Positions 17 through 7,090 of a stretch of DNA of 64,000 bases are shown in pieces (the stretch's first letter is position 1; every line of letters starts with the position of its first letter). Under the pieces are notes generated by a model that was not told where the DNA came from, did not search any database, and worked only from the letters and a program-made list of their open reading frames with translations. Source of the stretch: Bacillus sp. ISL-37 (GTDB taxonomy: Bacteria; Bacillota; Bacilli; Bacillales; Cytobacillaceae); contig NZ_JAGGQL010000014.1 of the NCBI RefSeq assembly GCF_018613315.1, positions 1-64,000 of the forward strand, given 5' to 3'. The translations under genes were made by a program, and so were the position numbers.

Positions 17-54
17 AATAAGATGACCCCGGTTCAATACCGGGGCCACTTATT
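17..54. terminator. Palindromic hairpin, probable terminator of the ars operon
   Basis: A 6-bp GC stem (27-32 with 40-45, loop 33-39) lies inside an outer AT stem (17-22 with 49-54). It is downstream of the last minus-strand gene of the ars operon and could end transcription from either side. No long T-run follows, so the call is tentative. The T-loop-like sequence in it was checked as a tRNA and rejected. Confidence 0.45.
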
Positions 55-124: not shown

Positions 125-403
125 CTAACAGCAATCTCTCTCATTCCCAGATAAAACGAATCCGTTCGCCTGCTGATCAAAATCGAGCGTCGATTCCTTT
201 GCTTCGATTTCGATCGATGGGTCGATTGCTACTCTGATTCCATTTGATTCAATGACTTCATCATCTGATTCCGGCTCATCCAGAGCCAGGCCTAATTTTG
301 GGCTACCTCAACTGATACCGGCAAAAAACACACGGATGCCGGTTGCATTTTGCTCCTGCAGCAGCTGCTTTAAGCTGTCACGAGCTTGATCGGTGATTTT
401 CAA
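125..403 (-). CDS. HesB/IscA-like selenoprotein, TGA read as selenocysteine
   Basis: Reading from TTG at 403, preceded by AGGAGGAA, the frame gives a HesB-type beginning ending in VFFAGIS, then TGA (308-310), then GSPKLGLALDEP and 60 codons in all without a stop until TAG at 125-127. The total is 92 residues with the TGA as residue 32. HesB-like proteins carry Cys at this position, and HesB-like selenoproteins are a known bacterial class, so TGA as Sec is the best reading. A hairpin fitting a bacterial SECIS follows (271-289). The protein ends in a Cys pair, so a U plus CC redox or metalloid site is possible (inference). It is the last gene of the arsRBCDA operon. The alternative is a pseudogene broken by a nonsense mutation, but the intact frame on both sides argues against it. 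Sec machinery genes are not in this window. Confidence 0.82.
271..289 (-). other. Candidate bacterial SECIS hairpin
   Basis: In the mRNA, 18 nt after the UGA, CUGGCUC pairs with GAGCCGG (7 bp, one G-U) around a 5-nt loop UGGAU. The spacing from UGA to the apical loop is 25 nt and the second loop base is G, which fits the published bacterial SECIS description (stem-loop close behind UGA, G among the first loop bases). The hairpin lies entirely within codons. Confidence 0.7.
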
Positions 404-419
404 AAAAACTTCCTCCTAT

Positions 420-842
420 CTAAGCGCCAGGGAATAATCTTCCGAGCGCTGCTTTCATTTCGGGATTCACATTGATGACGCTGCGAATTCCTTTTGCTTT
501 TGCTTCCGCTTCCTCGATGCTGTTGGCTTCACCAAGCTTCAGCAATGTTCCAATCGCGACGGTGCCTGTCCTGTTCTTCCCGCCAGAACAGTGGAAATAA
601 ACATTTTTTCCGGATTCGTATGCGTTGATTACCTCATCAATGGCTTGCTTGACTGACTCATCCTGGTTCTCAGCATTGTCCACGATTGGCTGGTGCTTCC
701 GATTATAATCATAATCGCCTTCTGCGTTTTCTGCACGCAAATCATACACAACATCGATTTTTTCCTTCTTCAGCAATTCAGGAATGGCGTCTGCTCCGCC
801 AATGTATATTCGCTTTGGGATTAATTCCTGGTATTCACTCAT
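420..842 (-). CDS. Dual-specificity/tyrosine phosphatase-like protein
   Basis: The 140-residue protein has a Cys-based phosphatase P-loop, HCSGGKNRTG (C-x5-R), near residues 84-93, and a DLRAE segment upstream that fits the general-acid region. This is the usual size of small DSP-type phosphatases acting on phosphotyrosine or similar esters. The start is preceded by AAAGGTGG at 8 nt. It lies 15 bp after arsA and just before the selenoprotein gene, so it is co-transcribed with arsenic resistance genes. Its role there is unknown. P-loop thiols are readily attacked by arsenite and arsenate mimics phosphate, so a sensing or repair role is conceivable but is only inference. Confidence 0.8.
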   Translation of the reverse strand: MSEYQELIPKRIYIGGADAIPELLKKEKIDVVYDLRAENAEGDYDYNRKHQPIVDNAENQDESVKQAIDEVINAYESGKNVYFHCSGGKNRTGTVAIGTLLKLGEANSIEEAEAKAKGIRSVINVNPEMKAALGRLFPGA

Positions 843-857
843 CTATGAAACCACCTT

Positions 858-2630
858 TCAATGATTGATCAAGTCCTTCATTTTATCGTACCCAATTTTT
901 TCTTCAGGCTGCCATGGAACAATGCTTGTCCTCTCGGCGATCTCTTCACTGACTCTCTTGATCCATACTTTTTCAGCATCCGCTCGACTCTGCAGAATCG
1001 GATCAGTCGTTTGCTGTGCATAAAGACTTTGATTGATAACCCACCATACCGGCTCGATCGAAGCCCGTTTTAAATCATCTCGTAACCGCGTCGCTTCAAG
1101 AACAGGTGTGGCTTCTGGGAGGGTAACGATGACCACGCTTGTTTCCTCAGGATTACGCAATTTTGGCAATAAATTCTGGACGCTCTCAGAAACGTTACCC
1201 GTCGAGCGGGAAATTTCTTTATGATATGACTCAGCAGAGTTCAGCAGCAATAATGTATGCCCAGTTGGAGCTGTATCGATGACAACAATCTCGTCCTTCG
1301 ACTTCTCCACAATATCGGCAAATGCCTGGAATACGGCAATTTCTTCTGTACAAGGAGAATTTAGATCTTCCTCAAGATAAGCAAGCGCATCCTCGTCTAA
1401 CTGATCCTTATTTTGAGACAAGACTGTTTCTTTGTATGCCTCGACTTCCTTTTTAGGATTCAAGCGGCTGATGGTCAGGTTTCTGTAGGCATCCTTCTGC
1501 TGGAATGTATACTCCAGATGGGCTGCTGGGTCGGTTGTCGTCAAATGGACCTTCAAGCCTTTTTCAGCCAGACCAACAGCGATTGCTGATGCCATTGTCG
1601 TCTTGCCGACTCCGCCCTTCCCCATCGTAAAAATGATCCTCATATCCTTTTCGGCAAAATCATCAATGAGTTCCTGCAACGAATGCAATTTTGCTTCAGA
1701 CAATTCCACTTCGTTTCTCTCGGCTGAATACGTCGCAGGTTTAAACATCTTGCGAAGATTATCCACCCCGGTTAATGAAAAAGGCACAAAAGGTACTGAG
1801 AACATTCCGACCTGCTTAAGCTTTTTTGGCAAGTCTGCCAGTGCTTTCCGCTGCCGGTCATAGAATGCTTTTGATATAGGATCCTCTTCTACATGATTTT
1901 GCAAAAGCCCATTGATGATGACAACCTGATTTTGCATGCCGATTTCCTTCAGCTCAGCTGAAGCCCTTTCTGCTTCTAGCATGGATGATGGTTCCGGCCT
2001 TGCAACAAGAATCAGTGTCGTCATGTTTGGATCAGACAACGCTTTTACCGTGGAAGTATACAACTGCTTCTTTTCTCCAAGGCCTGATAACGGTCCAAGG
2101 CATGATGCGCCGTGAGTGCTTTCCTCTAAAAAGCTGCTCCACGCGGTTGGCAGCTGCAGGAGCCTGAGAGTATGGCCAGTCGGAGCCGTATCGAACAAGA
2201 TATGGTCATACTGACTAATCAAATCCTGGTTGGTGAGCAAATTGGAGAACTCATCAAAAGCGGCGATTTCCACTGTGCATGCTCCGGAAAGCTGCTCTTC
2301 CATAGTCGCGACGACGCTTTCCGGCAATGCACTTCGATAAGGAGAAATCACTTTTTCCCGATATTGCCTTGCCGATTCCTCGGGATCGATATTGCAGGCT
2401 GATAAATTCGGAACAGACGGAACTTCGACTGGCTGATTGCCGATTTCAATATCGAATACATCCTGCAGATTCGATGCCGGATCTGTACTAACAATCAATA
2501 CCTTCTTACCTGTATCCGCCAGCGCAACAGCTGTGGCACAGGCAGTAGATGTTTTCCCTACTCCGCCTTTTCCGGTAAAAAAGAGATAAGGCGTGTTGAC
2601 TACATATTTCGGATGGAAAGTTTGAAACAT
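858..2630 (-). CDS. arsA: Arsenite efflux ATPase ArsA
   Basis: The 590-residue protein is two fused ArsA/GET3-type ATPase halves, each with GKGGVGKT (about residues 20 and 337) and DTAPTGHT. Cysteines equivalent to the As(III) site of E. coli ArsA are visible in CTVEIAAFDEF, CLGPLSGLGE and CTEEIAVFQAF. ArsA sits on ArsB at the membrane and couples ATP hydrolysis to arsenite or antimonite export, receiving metalloid from ArsD. The gene follows arsD by 14 bp with an AAGGAG site. The full two-domain length is normal for the family. Confidence 0.96.
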   Translation of the reverse strand: MFQTFHPKYVVNTPYLFFTGKGGVGKTSTACATAVALADTGKKVLIVSTDPASNLQDVFDIEIGNQPVEVPSVPNLSACNIDPEESARQYREKVISPYRSALPESVVATMEEQLSGACTVEIAAFDEFSNLLTNQDLISQYDHILFDTAPTGHTLRLLQLPTAWSSFLEESTHGASCLGPLSGLGEKKQLYTSTVKALSDPNMTTLILVARPEPSSMLEAERASAELKEIGMQNQVVIINGLLQNHVEEDPISKAFYDRQRKALADLPKKLKQVGMFSVPFVPFSLTGVDNLRKMFKPATYSAERNEVELSEAKLHSLQELIDDFAEKDMRIIFTMGKGGVGKTTMASAIAVGLAEKGLKVHLTTTDPAAHLEYTFQQKDAYRNLTISRLNPKKEVEAYKETVLSQNKDQLDEDALAYLEEDLNSPCTEEIAVFQAFADIVEKSKDEIVVIDTAPTGHTLLLLNSAESYHKEISRSTGNVSESVQNLLPKLRNPEETSVVIVTLPEATPVLEATRLRDDLKRASIEPVWWVINQSLYAQQTTDPILQSRADAEKVWIKRVSEEIAERTSIVPWQPEEKIGYDKMKDLINH

Positions 2631-2644
2631 GGCTATTCTCCTTC

Positions 2645-2992
2645 CTAAAGCAGCGTTTTGCGCGGTTTCTCAGGGGTCAGATCTTTGACATCCACGCCAA
2701 GCCAGCTTGCAAATTCTTCATTAGAAGGGTAGCTGCCTACTTTTTCGACCTTTCCGTCCACCATTACAAGCGGAAGTGCCTCCGGTCCTTTTTCATGCAA
2801 TACCTGGTTCACTTCTTTATGTTCAACAAATGCGGCTGGATCATTGGCAAGATTAAAGCGGCTGATTGGCAAGCCTTTTTTCTCCAGGATAAAAATGGCG
2901 GAGGCTACCCTAGTTAATTCCGGATCCACATTAGGTCCGCAGACGCCTGTAGGACAGCATAATGCCGGGTCAAAGATTTTAATTGTCTTCAT
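2645..2992 (-). CDS. arsD: Arsenite metallochaperone and repressor ArsD
   Basis: The start is the ATG at 2992, with GGGAGGAG about 9 nt upstream, not the upstream ATG whose frame runs through that ribosome site. With this start the As(III)-binding cysteines fall at 12, 13 and 18 (LCCPTGVCGP), exactly the ArsD numbering. The 115-residue protein delivers As(III) to ArsA and can act as a weak repressor. It lies between arsC and arsA, as expected for an arsDA pair. Confidence 0.95.
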   Translation of the reverse strand: MKTIKIFDPALCCPTGVCGPNVDPELTRVASAIFILEKKGLPISRFNLANDPAAFVEHKEVNQVLHEKGPEALPLVMVDGKVEKVGSYPSNEEFASWLGVDVKDLTPEKPRKTLL

Positions 2993-3018
2993 CTCATTTT
3001 TCTCCTCCCTTAGAGCAA

Positions 3019-3042
3019 CAGCCAAGAGTTTCCCCTTGGCTG
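3019..3042 (-). other. Hairpin between arsC and arsD
   Basis: An 8-bp perfect stem (3019-3026 with 3035-3042) with an 8-nt loop lies between the arsC stop and the arsD ribosome site. No T-run follows, so it is unlikely to be a full terminator. It may be an mRNA processing or stability element that lowers expression of the distal genes (inference). Confidence 0.5.
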
Positions 3043-3053
3043 CTAGTTCCTAT

Positions 3054-3476
3054 TTATTTTCCTGTCTCAGCAAACGTCTTGATGCGGTCGCTGATTTGGT
3101 CACGCACGCGTTGGAATACTGCCCACTTTTCTTCATCTGTTCCTTCGGCTTTTGCCGGGTCGTCAAAGCCCCAGTGCTCGCGTTTTACATGCGGAGGTGT
3201 CATTGGGCAGTGCTCATCTGCATGGCCGCAAAGTGTAACGACTAGGTCAGCATTGTTCAGGATTTCTCGATCAATCACATCTGAAGTCTGGTTCGTGATA
3301 TCGATGTTCACTTCCTTCATTGCTTTTACAGCATTAGGGTTCAAGCCGTGAGCTTCAAGACCTGCACTCTTAACTTCCCACTCGTCTCCAAGGTATTTTT
3401 TTGCCCATCCTTCAGCCATTTGGCTTCTGCAAGAGTTTCCAGTACATAAGAAGTAGATTGTTTTTTTGTTCGACAT
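3054..3476 (-). CDS. arsC: Arsenate reductase, thioredoxin-coupled ArsC
   Basis: The 140-residue protein has the low-molecular-weight phosphatase fold signature CTGNSCRSQ (Cys11, Cys16) and the distal pair in LCGHADEHC. These are the nucleophile and relay cysteines of the Staphylococcus/Bacillus thioredoxin-dependent class. It reduces cytoplasmic As(V) to As(III), which ArsB then exports. It is distinct from the respiratory reductase at 13402-15945. It lies 18 bp after arsB. Confidence 0.96.
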
Positions 3477-3494: not shown

Positions 3495-4796
3495 TTAAAT
3501 AATGAGTAACCAAATATATAGACCTACCAAAGTGATGAACAGAGTAGGAATGGTTAAAATGATTCCTGTTTTAAAATAAGTGCCCCATGAAATCTTGACG
3601 CCTTTCTGGGAAAGGACGTGCAGCCACAGCAATGTTGCCAGTGAACCGATCGGCGTGATTTTCGGACCTAAATCGGATCCGATGACGTTCGCATAAATCA
3701 GTGCTTCGCGGATGACACCTGTCGTGTTAGTATCTGCAATTGCCAGCGCGTCAATCATGACTGTTGGCATATTGTTCATAACAGAAGAAAGAATCGCTGC
3801 GATGAAGCCCATGCCGATCGTTGCGACAAATAACCCCTGGTCAGCTGCAGCCTGGATGACATCGGCAAGGATGTTCGTCAATCCAGCGTTACGCAGACCG
3901 TAAACGACCACATACATACCAATTGAGAAGAATACAATTGCCCATGGCGCCCCTTTTACGACGGTGGACGTTTGGACAGCCGGGCTCCTTCTTGCCATCA
4001 TCAAGAAGAAAATCGCGACGATCCCAGCAATGAAAGATACCGGGATATTCAAGAATTCACTTCCAAAGTAGCCTACTAGCAGGATTCCTAAAACAATCCA
4101 TGATAAGCGGAACATCTTCGCATCCTTAATTGCTTCAGCGGGCTTTTTCAAATCCGACATCTTGTAATTTTTCGGAATGCTCTTTCGGAAAAATAAATAC
4201 AGGACTAAAATACTTGCACCTAATGAGAAGAAGTTCGGCACGATCATGCGGGATGCATATTCGACGAATCCAATATCAAAGAAGTCAGCAGATACGATAT
4301 TCACCAGGTTGCTGACAACCAGCGGCAATGACGTCGTATCGGCAATGAATCCACTCGCGATGATAAATGGAAACACCATTTTTTCTTCAAATTTCAGGTT
4401 ACGCACCATCGCTAGAACGATCGGCGTTAAAATTAGTGCGGCCCCGTCATTCGCAAACAATGCAGCAACAGCCGCACCAAGCAGGGTTACGTACACAAAC
4501 ATCTTGACGCCGTTCCCCTTGGCAGCCCTCGCCATGTGCAGGGCGGACCATTCAAAGAATCCAATCTCATCTAAAATTAGTGATATGATAATGATTGCGA
4601 TAAATGCGAGTGTTGCATTCCAAACGATTCCGGTAACATCGATTACATCCTGGAAGTCAACAACACCGAAGATCAATGCTAGAATGGCTCCTCCTACCGC
4701 TGACCAGCCAATCCCAAGACCCTTAGGCTGCCAGATGACCAATGTCAGCGTCACGAGGAAAATCAATGAAGCGATAATCGGTAATGACAAATCCAC
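3495..4796 (-). CDS. arsB: Arsenite/antimonite efflux permease ArsB
   Basis: The 433-residue hydrophobic protein has about 11-12 membrane segments and belongs to the ion-transporter (ArsB/NhaD) superfamily, with the [12 protein letters not shown] and [13 protein letters not shown] motifs of ArsB. It is not of the ACR3 type. It exports arsenite alone, driven by the proton gradient, or as the ArsAB pump. It lies 9 bp after arsR and upstream of arsC, arsD and arsA. Confidence 0.94.
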
Positions 4797-4805
4797 ACAC
4801 CTCCG

Positions 4806-5150
4806 TTATTCGCAGGAAATCCGCTTTCCCTGCTTTTCAAGTTCTGTTAATTTTTCTTCCTGGCTTGGAAGTGCATCCATGAGCAATTGAACAAATTCAA
4901 AATGCTCGTACTGCCGGTTCAGTGAATAAAACACCCACTGTCCCCTCCTGCTTTCCTTTACCAAACCTGCGTCCTTCAGCTTTCGGATATGCTGGCTGAT
5001 CGCCGGCTGACTGGCATCAAATATTGCTACAAACTCACAGACACAGCAATCGTGATCAGCGAGAATTCTCATCATCGTCAAACGCGTCTTGTCACCCAGA
5101 AGCTTCAACACAGCTGCAGCCTGATCCATTTCAATACTTTGCTTAATCAA
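4806..5150 (-). CDS. arsR: Arsenic-responsive repressor ArsR (operon copy 1)
   Basis: This 114-residue winged-helix ArsR/SmtB repressor starts at TTG 5150 after GGAGGTGGAG. Cys35, Cys36 and Cys38 in the alpha-3 helix (DCCVCEF) form the classical type-1 As(III) site, and SQPAISQHIRKLKDAGLV is the recognition helix region. As(III) binding should release it from the promoter immediately upstream. It is the first gene of the operon that runs to 125. Confidence 0.95.
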   Translation of the reverse strand: MIKQSIEMDQAAAVLKLLGDKTRLTMMRILADHDCCVCEFVAIFDASQPAISQHIRKLKDAGLVKESRRGQWVFYSLNRQYEHFEFVQLLMDALPSQEEKLTELEKQGKRISCE

Positions 5151-5206: not shown

Positions 5207-5307
5207 GGGTGATATTATGTAAAAATTATTAAGAAATTGTAAAGCTGCTTTATCTGCCTTATTTTAAGCAATTACTCCGGTTATTATTTATTGTAAGCAT
5301 AATAAGA

Positions 5308-5449: not shown

Positions 5450-5680
5450 TTAAGCCAACACGCCTTTCAGTTCATTGACAGTCAGCAGTTTGCCTGTGGA
5501 TACCACCTTTTCATCGATGACAAGCGCGGGCGTACTCATTACTTTATATTTCATGATTTCCCTGATGTCTTCTACTTTTTCTACCTGTACTTCAAGCTGT
5601 AATTCTTCTACCGCCATGCGAGTATTTTTTTCAAGCTCCTGGCATTTTTTGCAGCCTGTACCTAGTATTTTGATGTTCAT
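5450..5680 (-). CDS. Small thioredoxin-fold redox protein
   Basis: The 76-residue protein of the small redox-active disulfide family (TM0996/MTH895-like) has its active site in GTGCKKCQ close to the N-terminus and a cis-Pro region at STPALVI. The second ATG (5680) is taken because AGGAGG is 8 nt away from it and only 2 nt from the first. It follows the CSCS permease by 20 bp. Such proteins often accompany these permeases and may supply a reduced thiol or hand over substrate (inference). Confidence 0.87.
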   Translation of the reverse strand: MNIKILGTGCKKCQELEKNTRMAVEELQLEVQVEKVEDIREIMKYKVMSTPALVIDEKVVSTGKLLTVNELKGVLA

Positions 5681-5700
5681 CTTCATTACCTCCTCATAAT

Positions 5701-6702
5701 TTATAAGATTGCATTAAAACCATAACCAATCAGGATGATCCCTGTGGCGACAACGCCGACGAATACAGCAATCAGCTTTGGTTTGATTACTTTCCTAAGC
5801 AAAATCATTTCCGGCAGGGAGAGTGCCGTGATGGCCATCATGAAGGCCAGCGCTGTACCTGCTCCTACACCTTTGTTTAATAATGCTTCGACAATAGGCA
5901 GGGAACCGACAGCATTAGAGTAAAGCGGCACGCCTAAAATCGTCGCAATCGGAACCGCGAAGAAATTGCCTTCTCCAGCATATTTGACAAGCAAATCCTG
6001 CGGGGCATATCCATGGATGAACGCCCCGATTCCAATTCCGATCAAGAGATAGAGCCAAATCTTCTGTACCGTTTCCACTACATTCCGGGCAGCGAAAGTC
6101 GTTCTTTCCTTAAGCTCCTCCCGAGTGAATAACGCCTTGATTTTTTCGGCAAACGTTTTGCTGTCTCCCTCAGGCATATGAATTCGTTGCTGGCCAGCGG
6201 CGATTTCATATACATATGACTCCACATGCTTTTCCATCTTCAGCTTGCCAATGGCGGCTCCCGCAACAATTGCCAGAGTCATACCGGCAAGGACATAAAT
6301 CAAGGCGACTTTCCAGCCGAAAATGGAAAACAGCATCACAAGCGAGATCTCATTGACGATTGGAGATGAAATCAGGAACGTAAAGGTGATGCCTAAAGGG
6401 ATTCCTGCTTCGACAAAGCCGATAAATAAAGGTACCGTCGAACATGAGCAGAACGGCGATAGCACTCCGAGAAAAGCTGCCATCACACTGGCCGCGCCTT
6501 TCCTTCTGCCTTCAAGCCATTCCTTTACTTTTTCGGGCGGGAAAAAGCTCCTGATGAAAGAAATTGCGAAAATCATCACCGCGAGCAAAAATAAGATTTT
6601 CGTCGTGTCATAGATGAAAAAATGCAGTGCTCCGCCAAGTCTTGTGGACAGTTCCATGTTCATGACATCGACGACCAACCAATTGGCCAGTTCATTAAAC
6701 AT
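5701..6702 (-). CDS. CSCS-motif permease, ArsP/UPF0718 superfamily
   Basis: The 333-residue protein has about 8-9 membrane segments. It carries the diagnostic SPFCSCSTVPLF motif near residue 83 and a paired half-motif GVPLYSNAVGSLP near residue 255. The superfamily includes ArsP, which exports trivalent organoarsenicals. A cytoplasmic loop (about residues 160-205) separates two homologous halves. The gene starts directly at the stop of arsR2 and precedes a thioredoxin-like gene. Substrate is not proven by sequence, but ArsR control makes a metalloid or organoarsenical likely. Confidence 0.82.
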   Translation of the reverse strand: MFNELANWLVVDVMNMELSTRLGGALHFFIYDTTKILFLLAVMIFAISFIRSFFPPEKVKEWLEGRRKGAASVMAAFLGVLSPFCSCSTVPLFIGFVEAGIPLGITFTFLISSPIVNEISLVMLFSIFGWKVALIYVLAGMTLAIVAGAAIGKLKMEKHVESYVYEIAAGQQRIHMPEGDSKTFAEKIKALFTREELKERTTFAARNVVETVQKIWLYLLIGIGIGAFIHGYAPQDLLVKYAGEGNFFAVPIATILGVPLYSNAVGSLPIVEALLNKGVGAGTALAFMMAITALSLPEMILLRKVIKPKLIAVFVGVVATGIILIGYGFNAIL

Positions 6703-7065
6703 TTAGATCGCCTTCTTTATATACGGAATCAGAGGTGCCAGCTTTTCTTTATCCAGACTATAGACAGTGAACTTACCTTCTCTTCTTGATTTAATGAGCT
6801 TTCCTTTTTCCATGATCTTCAAATGGTGGCTGATAGTTGAGGATGCTCCCGATAGACCATCGACAATTTCGCACATGCAAAGATCCTCAAACCACAACAA
6901 GCCCATGATTTTAATTCGTGTCTCATCACCGAGTGCCTTGAAAAACGCCGCTGTACTTTCAAGCTCTTCCTCAGCATTCACGAGCGGGAATTCTTCTTTA
7001 ACCCCATCAATCATTCTCCTCATGCTGTCTGATGATTTTATTTCCCATCCTGTTCTGCAAGTCAT
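6703..7065 (-). CDS. ArsR-family repressor (copy 2)
   Basis: This 120-residue winged-helix protein uses the ATG at 7065, 7 nt after GGGAGGTG. A GTG upstream lies inside the ribosome site. Cys63 and Cys65 in DLCMCEIVDG form the metalloid site on the DNA-binding helix, followed by SSTISHHLKIMEKG. The N-terminal 30 residues are longer than in typical ArsR. It heads the operon with the CSCS permease and thioredoxin-like gene and should control them. Confidence 0.88.
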   Translation of the reverse strand: MTCRTGWEIKSSDSMRRMIDGVKEEFPLVNAEEELESTAAFFKALGDETRIKIMGLLWFEDLCMCEIVDGLSGASSTISHHLKIMEKGKLIKSRREGKFTVYSLDKEKLAPLIPYIKKAI

Positions 7066-7090
7066 AAAATGCACCTCCCACTTTTATCTT

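Follow-up and report, generated by a model that had tools for sequence, protein, structure and literature searches.

Catalogues of HesB-like selenoproteins go back to the 2000s; one source lists 11 of them (PMC1794560), and a table in a 2026 review represents the family by TIGR01911 with the motif UxGP (PMC13188914). HesB genes are also known from arsenic resistance operons. According to two papers, orf7 of the ars1 operon of Bacillus sp. CDB3 (arsRYCDATorf7orf8) is a HesB gene, and orf8, which encodes a dual-specificity phosphatase (DSP), conferred arsenate resistance in E. coli (PMC4562236, PMC5481582); PMC4562236 also places a hairpin between arsC and arsD and counts arsT as part of the operon. 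A further paper reports a HesB gene in an ars operon of Exiguobacterium (PMC8779447). The available descriptions of orf7 do not mention selenocysteine, and the gene is likened to the one presented here by description only.

The window, which is the whole stretch of 64,000 nucleotides of Bacillus sp. ISL-37 that was analysed, contains an ars operon ending in a HesB-like gene with an in-frame TGA (Table 1). The CDB3 operon and that of the window both finish with a HesB-like gene and a DSP gene side by side and both have a hairpin between arsC and arsD, whereas the order is hesB then DSP in CDB3 and DSP then hesB in the window. The original prediction proposed a selenium-based thiol/selenol function in arsenic handling that was not known to be described. 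For the parts of the combination this is too strong, since HesB selenoproteins and ars-operon HesB genes are both present in the literature (PMC1794560, PMC13188914, PMC4562236, PMC5481582, PMC8779447). No description of a Sec-form hesB in an ars operon was found in the literature searched, the coverage of which was partial, and an earlier mention is possible. The window gene is a real and probably unnamed selenocysteine (Sec) form of a gene already known from ars operons.

With the HesB-like selenoprotein family (TIGR01911; NF038090, IscA_HesB_Se) the window protein shares the PF01521 domain, Sec in place of the conserved Cys and a SECIS-like hairpin in the coding region. However, it scores under both curated cut-offs (42.5 of 66.35 bits for TIGR01911 and 56.5 of 85 bits for NF038090), as do nine of its relatives, both Sec and Cys forms, and a tenth, a distant paralogue, gave no match to these two models. 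The window protein carries UGSP where the table of the review gives UxGP (PMC13188914) and, unlike that family, it has a Cys-Cys-COOH end and a location in an ars operon. In relatives the motif is mostly UGxP, with exceptions that include URSS (L130) and UGGH (L117). Another selenoprotein in the same review, SaoC, has a terminal chalcogen pair and belongs to a group implicated in metal(loid)s (PMC13188914). For SaoC (NF040734) the table gives a CU motif, whereas the window protein has an internal Sec and a CC tail, a contrast drawn by description.

The hesB gene and its operon

The operon runs on the minus strand in the order arsR-arsB-arsC-arsD-arsA-DSP-hesB. It had been predicted that hesB closes an arsRBCDA operon; hesB is indeed the last gene, but the DSP gene between arsA and hesB, of the kind named orf8 in CDB3, had been overlooked.

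Table 1. Features of the hesB-containing ars operon, in window coordinates
Feature	Position	Strand	Details
Intrinsic-terminator-like hairpin downstream of hesB	23..49	-	-20.3 kcal/mol, 0/200 shuffles as stable
hesB-like selenoprotein gene	125..403	-	TTG start 403-401, stop TAG 127-125, 92 residues
SECIS-like hairpin CUGGCUC-UGGAU-GAGCCGG	271..289	-	7 bp, 5-nt loop, loop begins 25 nt after UGA
In-frame TGA (UGA), putative Sec residue 32	308..310	-	aligned with the invariant Cys of Cys forms
Ribosome-binding site AGGAGG	412..417	-	8 nt upstream of hesB TTG start
DSP-like gene, HCSGGKNR	420..842	-	PF00782 41.7 bits (cut-off 33.5)
arsA, arsenical pump-driving ATPase	858..2630	-	TIGR04291 871 bits (cut-off 650)
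arsD, arsenite metallochaperone	2645..2995	-	NF033727 131.7 bits (cut-off 90)
arsC-arsD intergenic region, strong hairpin	2996..3053	-	-23.8 kcal/mol, z -5.07
arsC, thioredoxin-type arsenate reductase	3054..3476	-	TIGR02691 238.8 bits (cut-off 174.3)
arsB, arsenite efflux permease	3495..4796	-	TIGR00935 767 bits (cut-off 415)
arsR, ArsR/SmtB repressor, first gene	4806..5150	-	NF033788 92.2 bits (cut-off 55)
Promoter-like site upstream of arsR	5214..5243	-	10/12 matches; weak

The hesB frame contains exactly one TGA, at codon 32, in the motif AGIS-U-GSPKLGLALDEP when the TGA is read as a residue. This agrees with the 92-codon HesB/IscA-like frame with a single TGA at the conserved-Cys position that had been proposed, and the product matches PF01521 (Fe-S_biosyn) with 41.4 bits (cut-off 26.3). 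It ends in ...SGNERDCC before the TAG, and C91-C92 are its only cysteines. Across the 18 rows of alignment A1, U32, C91 and C92 are the invariant chalcogen residues. A TGT or TGC at 308-310 on resequencing had been named as a finding that would speak against the TGA; there is an indirect answer to this, as the same TGA is present in separate assemblies of close relatives, whose proteins are 95-98% identical to the window product. The AlphaFold2 model of the product (mean pLDDT 89, pTM 0.75, with 67 as the pLDDT of the final two residues) has a predicted IscA/HesB fold; its top PDB matches are the E. coli IscA entries 1r94 and 1s98, the former with a Foldseek E of 1.6e-6 and a TM of 0.78.

Regarding the regulatory elements, promoter-like sites of the kind seen upstream of arsR were found 13 times against 11.8 expected in shuffles, and the terminator pattern scan gave 9 hits in 7.5 kb against 7.4 expected. 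Rfam gave no matches in the window at gathering score, which is uninformative on the hesB hairpin, and PADLOC gave none either. A second arsenic-type cassette lies upstream (window 5450-7074), with an arsR-like gene, an ArsP-type permease and an ArsE-type thioredoxin-like protein.

Probable selenocysteine decoding of the in-frame UGA

A lack of sel genes in the genome had been named as a finding that would speak against a selenoprotein. The genome of the host, which has 4.74 Mb in 62 contigs, encodes selA (563.1 bits), selB (357.7 bits), a tRNA-Sec (67.1 bits, anticodon TCA, i.e. UCA) and selD, the latter itself with an in-frame TGA (GGC-TGA-GGA-TGC-AAA). Two more HesB-like frames with an in-frame TGA are present in the host (G000), at C44:33168-33440 (L057, GFGUGGP) and C20:17611-17865 (L058, GIGUGGP). 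Inspection of the surroundings of the C44 copy by eye showed genes resembling a tungstate-type ABC transporter and uppP, and none recognisable as an ars gene. The tail of this paralogue (GGC-TGC-TGA-TAA) hinted at a terminal Cys-Sec and was considered as a second Sec, but several orthologues end in TAA and not TGA, so that this TGA looks like an ordinary stop.

In the bacterial SECIS model given in PMC13188914, the loop has 3-9 nt with a G within its first two positions, the stem has 4-16 bp, the distance from the UGA is 16-37 nt and the minimum free energy lies at or below -7.5. The hesB hairpin falls within all of these ranges, with its 7 bp, the loop UGGAU, a distance of 25 nt and -12.6 kcal/mol. 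This energy refers to a 22-nt stretch, for which 1/200 shuffles was as stable. The hairpin still forms in a 49-nt stretch (14/200 shuffles as stable), and in a 71-nt stretch the minimum-energy fold differs from it and is not unusually stable (34/200 shuffles as good).

Conservation at the nucleotide level was also considered. Synonymous codon choice looks frozen at the hairpin: in 76 gap-free loci, the 7 conserved codons of residues 38-44 have a mean codon entropy of 0.27 relative to expectation, and 23 further conserved codons one of 0.79; the loci had been found with peptide patterns including GLALD, which selects for residues 38-44 but not for their codons. Among 41 sequences that we picked to be diverse, 95.5% of the stem cells are paired, and in 4/7 stem pairs both sides have changed. 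The covariation score is 0.135 versus 0.097 in shuffles, is reached by 0/500 of them and is higher than in any slid version. By two minor measures the hairpin is not exceptional, as further pair types were reached by 40/500 shuffles and doubly changed cells number 5 versus 6 at slide -1. Some of the double stem changes alter the protein, such as E43 to K with a U-A pair (L082, L087, L088) or E to A with a G-C pair (L234). The hairpin energies of 79 Sec-type sequences, one of them a TAA copy, average -12.1 kcal/mol and lie between -14.5 and -6.3 kcal/mol, whereas those of 12 Cys forms go from 0 to -6.7 kcal/mol, with a slight overlap between both ranges.

Concerning the decoding itself, SelB and tRNA-Sec would read the UGA at 310-308 under the direction of the hairpin located downstream within the GLALDEP codons. 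This step is strongly supported by sequence evidence, and the UGA is very probably read as selenocysteine.

Sec and Cys forms among the relatives

Members of the hesB family, including Sec and Cys forms and both ars-linked and other copies, were matched in 135/193 genomes of the host's family, and every match listed in this search has one TGA except that of G010, which has TAA. The best 80 of the 124 relatives found were named. Among these, 78/80 keep the TGA at residue 32, which excludes a chance TGA in hesB, and another 78/80 figure applies to the Cys-Cys end (exceptions L130 and the frameshifted L080). The two loci that depart from the TGA are L092, with TAA, and L080, a frameshifted draft copy. 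The latter, from the draft of Mesobacillus selenatarsenatis SF-1, is out of frame by one base, and the same assembly has a second, intact copy (L119) in another ars operon. The former (L092/L052, Bacillus sp. V3-13) has TAA at the Sec codon, in an operon with arsA recognisable only as a fragment. An alignment of homologues had been suggested as a check for Cys or Sec at residue 32; at column 32 of alignment A2 (18 rows), C is found in all 8 rows of the Cys form and TGA in all 10 rows of the Sec form.

The search was extended to an order-level sample of 397 genomes, of which 181 had a match and 137/181 could be classified among the matches listed; here the forms were assigned from counts of in-frame stops, the actual residue being read in fetched loci only. 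Of the 90 classified genomes with a TGA form, 89 have selA, whereas selA is present in 10 of the 47 that show a stop-free form alone (Fisher p 4.6e-23 over the 137 genomes). Furthermore, 20 genomes of the host's family were searched again, namely 19 of the 21 with selA absent or below cut-off (G179 and G183 were omitted) plus G079, which has selA. Eight of them gave a match: seven are stop-free, all with Cys, and one is an N-truncated TGA relic (L172) in a genome without convincing selA. CCGP is present in 26/27 Cys rows read (L218 has CGAP), and the Cys rows end in one or two Cys. It seems from the sequences that the Cys form, nearly always with the vicinal CC pair of CCGP, replaces the Sec form in most hosts without selA.

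These distributions bear on the alternative that translation really ends at the TGA or passes it by random read-through, in which case the locus would be a remnant and the selenium story an artefact. Such a reading could draw on the L172 relic, on the TAA of L092/L052 in an operon with an eroded arsA and on one genome (G563), where an intact TGA form (L222) lies behind arsR, arsB, arsC and arsI while selA was not found and neither selB nor tRNA-Sec came above cut-off. A congener (G355) has selA and tRNA-Sec above cut-off, and the G563 case is read as a recent loss or transfer, although it could also be an assembly gap. Against a true stop speak the TGA kept in nearly all named loci within a frame that is open and conserved on both sides, the covarying hairpin, the Cys at the same column in relatives and the co-distribution with selA; moreover, decay as in L172 and L092 is what loss of use predicts. 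This explanation is therefore considered very improbable, and random read-through or a pseudogene was ruled out by conservation, hairpin covariation and selA co-distribution, with G563, L172, L092/L052 and L080 as exceptions. The claim of a selenoprotein gene is in this way upheld, at the level of sequence, by the machinery, the SECIS-like hairpin, the Cys homologues and the association with selA.

In a tree of 92 columns (L080, L092, L165-L167 and L172 omitted), a branch (99/93) sets the Cys forms, 11 rows in all, apart from the rest. With DSP, trx and arsP counted as well, the ars label needs 12 changes on this tree versus a shuffled mean of 27.2, and an ancestral ars link is not resolvable from it.

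Arsenic neighbourhood and possible function

Core ars genes were found within -7/+4 kb of hesB in 57/80 named loci and were absent in 23/80, where "no ars gene" can mean "not seen" because many loci stop at contig ends. Two of the 23 (L108 and L123) have DSP/trxB or arsP/trx-like genes. The closest recognised upstream gene in the 57 ars-linked loci is arsA (20), the DSP gene (19) or arsC (18), and these loci comprise arsB in 40, acr3 in 11, arsC in 55, DSP in 25 and a trxB-like gene in 9, with arsA and arsD together in 37 and neither recognised in 19. Given this varied content, hesB travels with several kinds of ars operon.

The Cys forms adjoin ars-operon genes in all of the 27 loci read, a count in which DSP and trxB are the only such genes in the 1.5-kb flanks of L169 and L171 and the coordinates of L166 coincide with those of a plasmid match. 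These loci include the Cys plasmid loci (7/7, from 7 of the 13 plasmid records outside the Cytobacillus group), the stop-free matches in selA-poor genomes of the family (7/7), and the order-level Cys loci with 1.5-kb flanks (11/11; of all 27 order-level loci with such flanks, 21 have neighbours of this kind) and with 11-kb windows (2/2). On the other hand, no core ars genes were found near 10/18 Sec loci picked from other families (the 20 order-level regions were our own picks). A strict arsenic specificity of the Sec family was ruled out by these 10/18 together with the 23/80 named loci without core ars neighbours. Nor is the putative site of U32 and the terminal CC specific to arsenic, since many copies outside ars operons have both. 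A spoVR-like gene was seen by eye just upstream of the non-ars Sec copies L095, L102, L104, L105, L111, L113, L117, L122, L124, L127 and L135, being the next gene in 10/11 of this group and the third in L095. Among the other neighbours of non-ars copies seen by eye (the spoVR-like group, dipeptidase-like, ZnuA-like), no common function emerged.

The gene neighbourhood suggests a role of hesB in arsenic handling. The A-type Fe-S carriers IscA, SufA and ErpA provide the fold and an inventory of three chalcogen ligands. The site of IscA consists of three cysteines, C35, C99 and C101, with a C-terminal CGC-type motif; the window protein offers U32 and a terminal CC, and the C-x(n)-CGC pattern is absent. 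In ArsD, a vicinal Cys pair acts together with a third ligand. It is proposed that the hesB product resembles ArsD as a small protein, encoded in an ars operon, with a vicinal Cys pair and a third ligand. Nevertheless, the two proteins belong to different families, and hesB does not simply replace ArsD, because arsD adjoins it in 37/57 ars-linked loci.

According to the mechanism that we propose, hesB would be translated from the ars operon mRNA as a small selenoprotein of the IscA/HesB fold, whose only chalcogen ligands, Sec32 and Cys91-Cys92, would take the place of the three-cysteine site of the IscA type. We hypothesise that residue 32 and the terminal Cys pair belong to a common site, and U32, C91 and C92 could form a trigonal As(III) site. 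Judging from the operon context, this Sec/Cys/Cys site would capture trivalent arsenic, and the protein would buffer the captured As(III) or hand it to the export machinery in an ArsD-like manner. Since arsA and arsD were unrecognised in 19/57 ars-linked loci, its partners would be not only ArsDA but also ArsB or Acr3. As a whole, the explanation of a Sec-decoded IscA/HesB-fold selenoprotein from the ars mRNA that works as an As(III)-binding scavenger or chaperone has, in our estimation, an even chance of being correct. More tentative, and somewhat doubtful, is a broader proposal for the Bacillales. In ordinary ars operons, a dedicated selenoprotein, induced by arsenic and built on the IscA scaffold with a Sec/Cys/Cys site, would scavenge or chaperone As(III) with high affinity, and a vicinal-cysteine version would stand in for it where there is no selenocysteine.

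The same fold could point to an A-type Fe-S carrier or repair protein that supplies clusters or mends them after arsenite damage. Sec would then be a ligand to a cluster or to iron, and the ars operon would merely provide induction upon attack on the clusters. The Pfam Fe-S_biosyn match above cut-off, the HesB/IscA families as best NCBIfam models (though under cut-off) and the many copies outside ars operons are consistent with it. However, the CC-COOH end stands in place of the CGC-type motif, all Cys forms read adjoin ars-operon genes, and the host also has stop-free PF01521 genes that outscore the window hesB (C12, 90.7 bits; C44:98870, 70.8 bits). Sec as an Fe-S cluster ligand would also be unusual, to our knowledge. 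This function is thus regarded as rather unlikely.

A redox enzyme was also weighed, in which Sec32 and the terminal Cys pair would form a selenenylsulfide/disulfide relay, fed by thioredoxin reductase, that reduces ArsC or damaged thiols again. Sec is typical of redox active sites. In addition, arsC is present in 55/57 ars-linked loci and the trxB-like gene in 9/57, although trxB was unrecognised in the other 48/57. The frame has no UxxC or CxxU motif, and we know of no oxidoreductase with the IscA fold. The presence of arsT in the CDB3 operon, as given in PMC4562236, is in line with a redox enzyme, but altogether this role seems improbable. The arsenite scavenger or chaperone, at even chances, is therefore ranked ahead of Fe-S repair and of the redox role.

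In 15 order-level genomes (e.g. G324, G266, G547), as counted by eye, a Sec-form copy shares its contig with selA at a distance of 15-45 kb, which suggests a selenium gene region. Such proximity could fit a protein that guards selenium metabolism, dealing with arsenic-selenium adducts or with selenium supply when arsenite meets selenide. Stop-free forms in 37 classified genomes without selA, the ars linkage of the Cys forms read and the finding of no selenium gene among the neighbours of hesB in the window operon all argue against it, making it the least credible of the readings considered.

Arsenic and selenium are classic mutual antagonists, and ars operons are usually regarded as sulphur-thiol systems. 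If a conserved ars-operon selenoprotein does exist in several genera of Bacillales, arsenic resistance can in part hinge on the supply of selenium; under the broader proposal above, the arsenic-selenium bond would have a genetically encoded use in detoxification. The natural Sec and Cys forms are a ready comparison for what selenium adds. Moreover, the gene is easily missed in annotation.

Regarding mobile elements, no relatives were found in viral contigs or phages, and 18 plasmid records carry them. A Bacillus arachidis plasmid has the arrangement arsR-acr3-arsC-arsD-arsA-hesB with a copy 36.2% identical to the window protein (P0001). In five Cytobacillus plasmids no feature is listed under the hesB matches, the gene table being incomplete; the one Cytobacillus match that was looked at in detail (H1) belongs to an ars operon and has the Sec form. 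Several Cys-form relatives in ars operons (L158, L160, L162 and L163, all on plasmids) carry the misleading label "adhesin".
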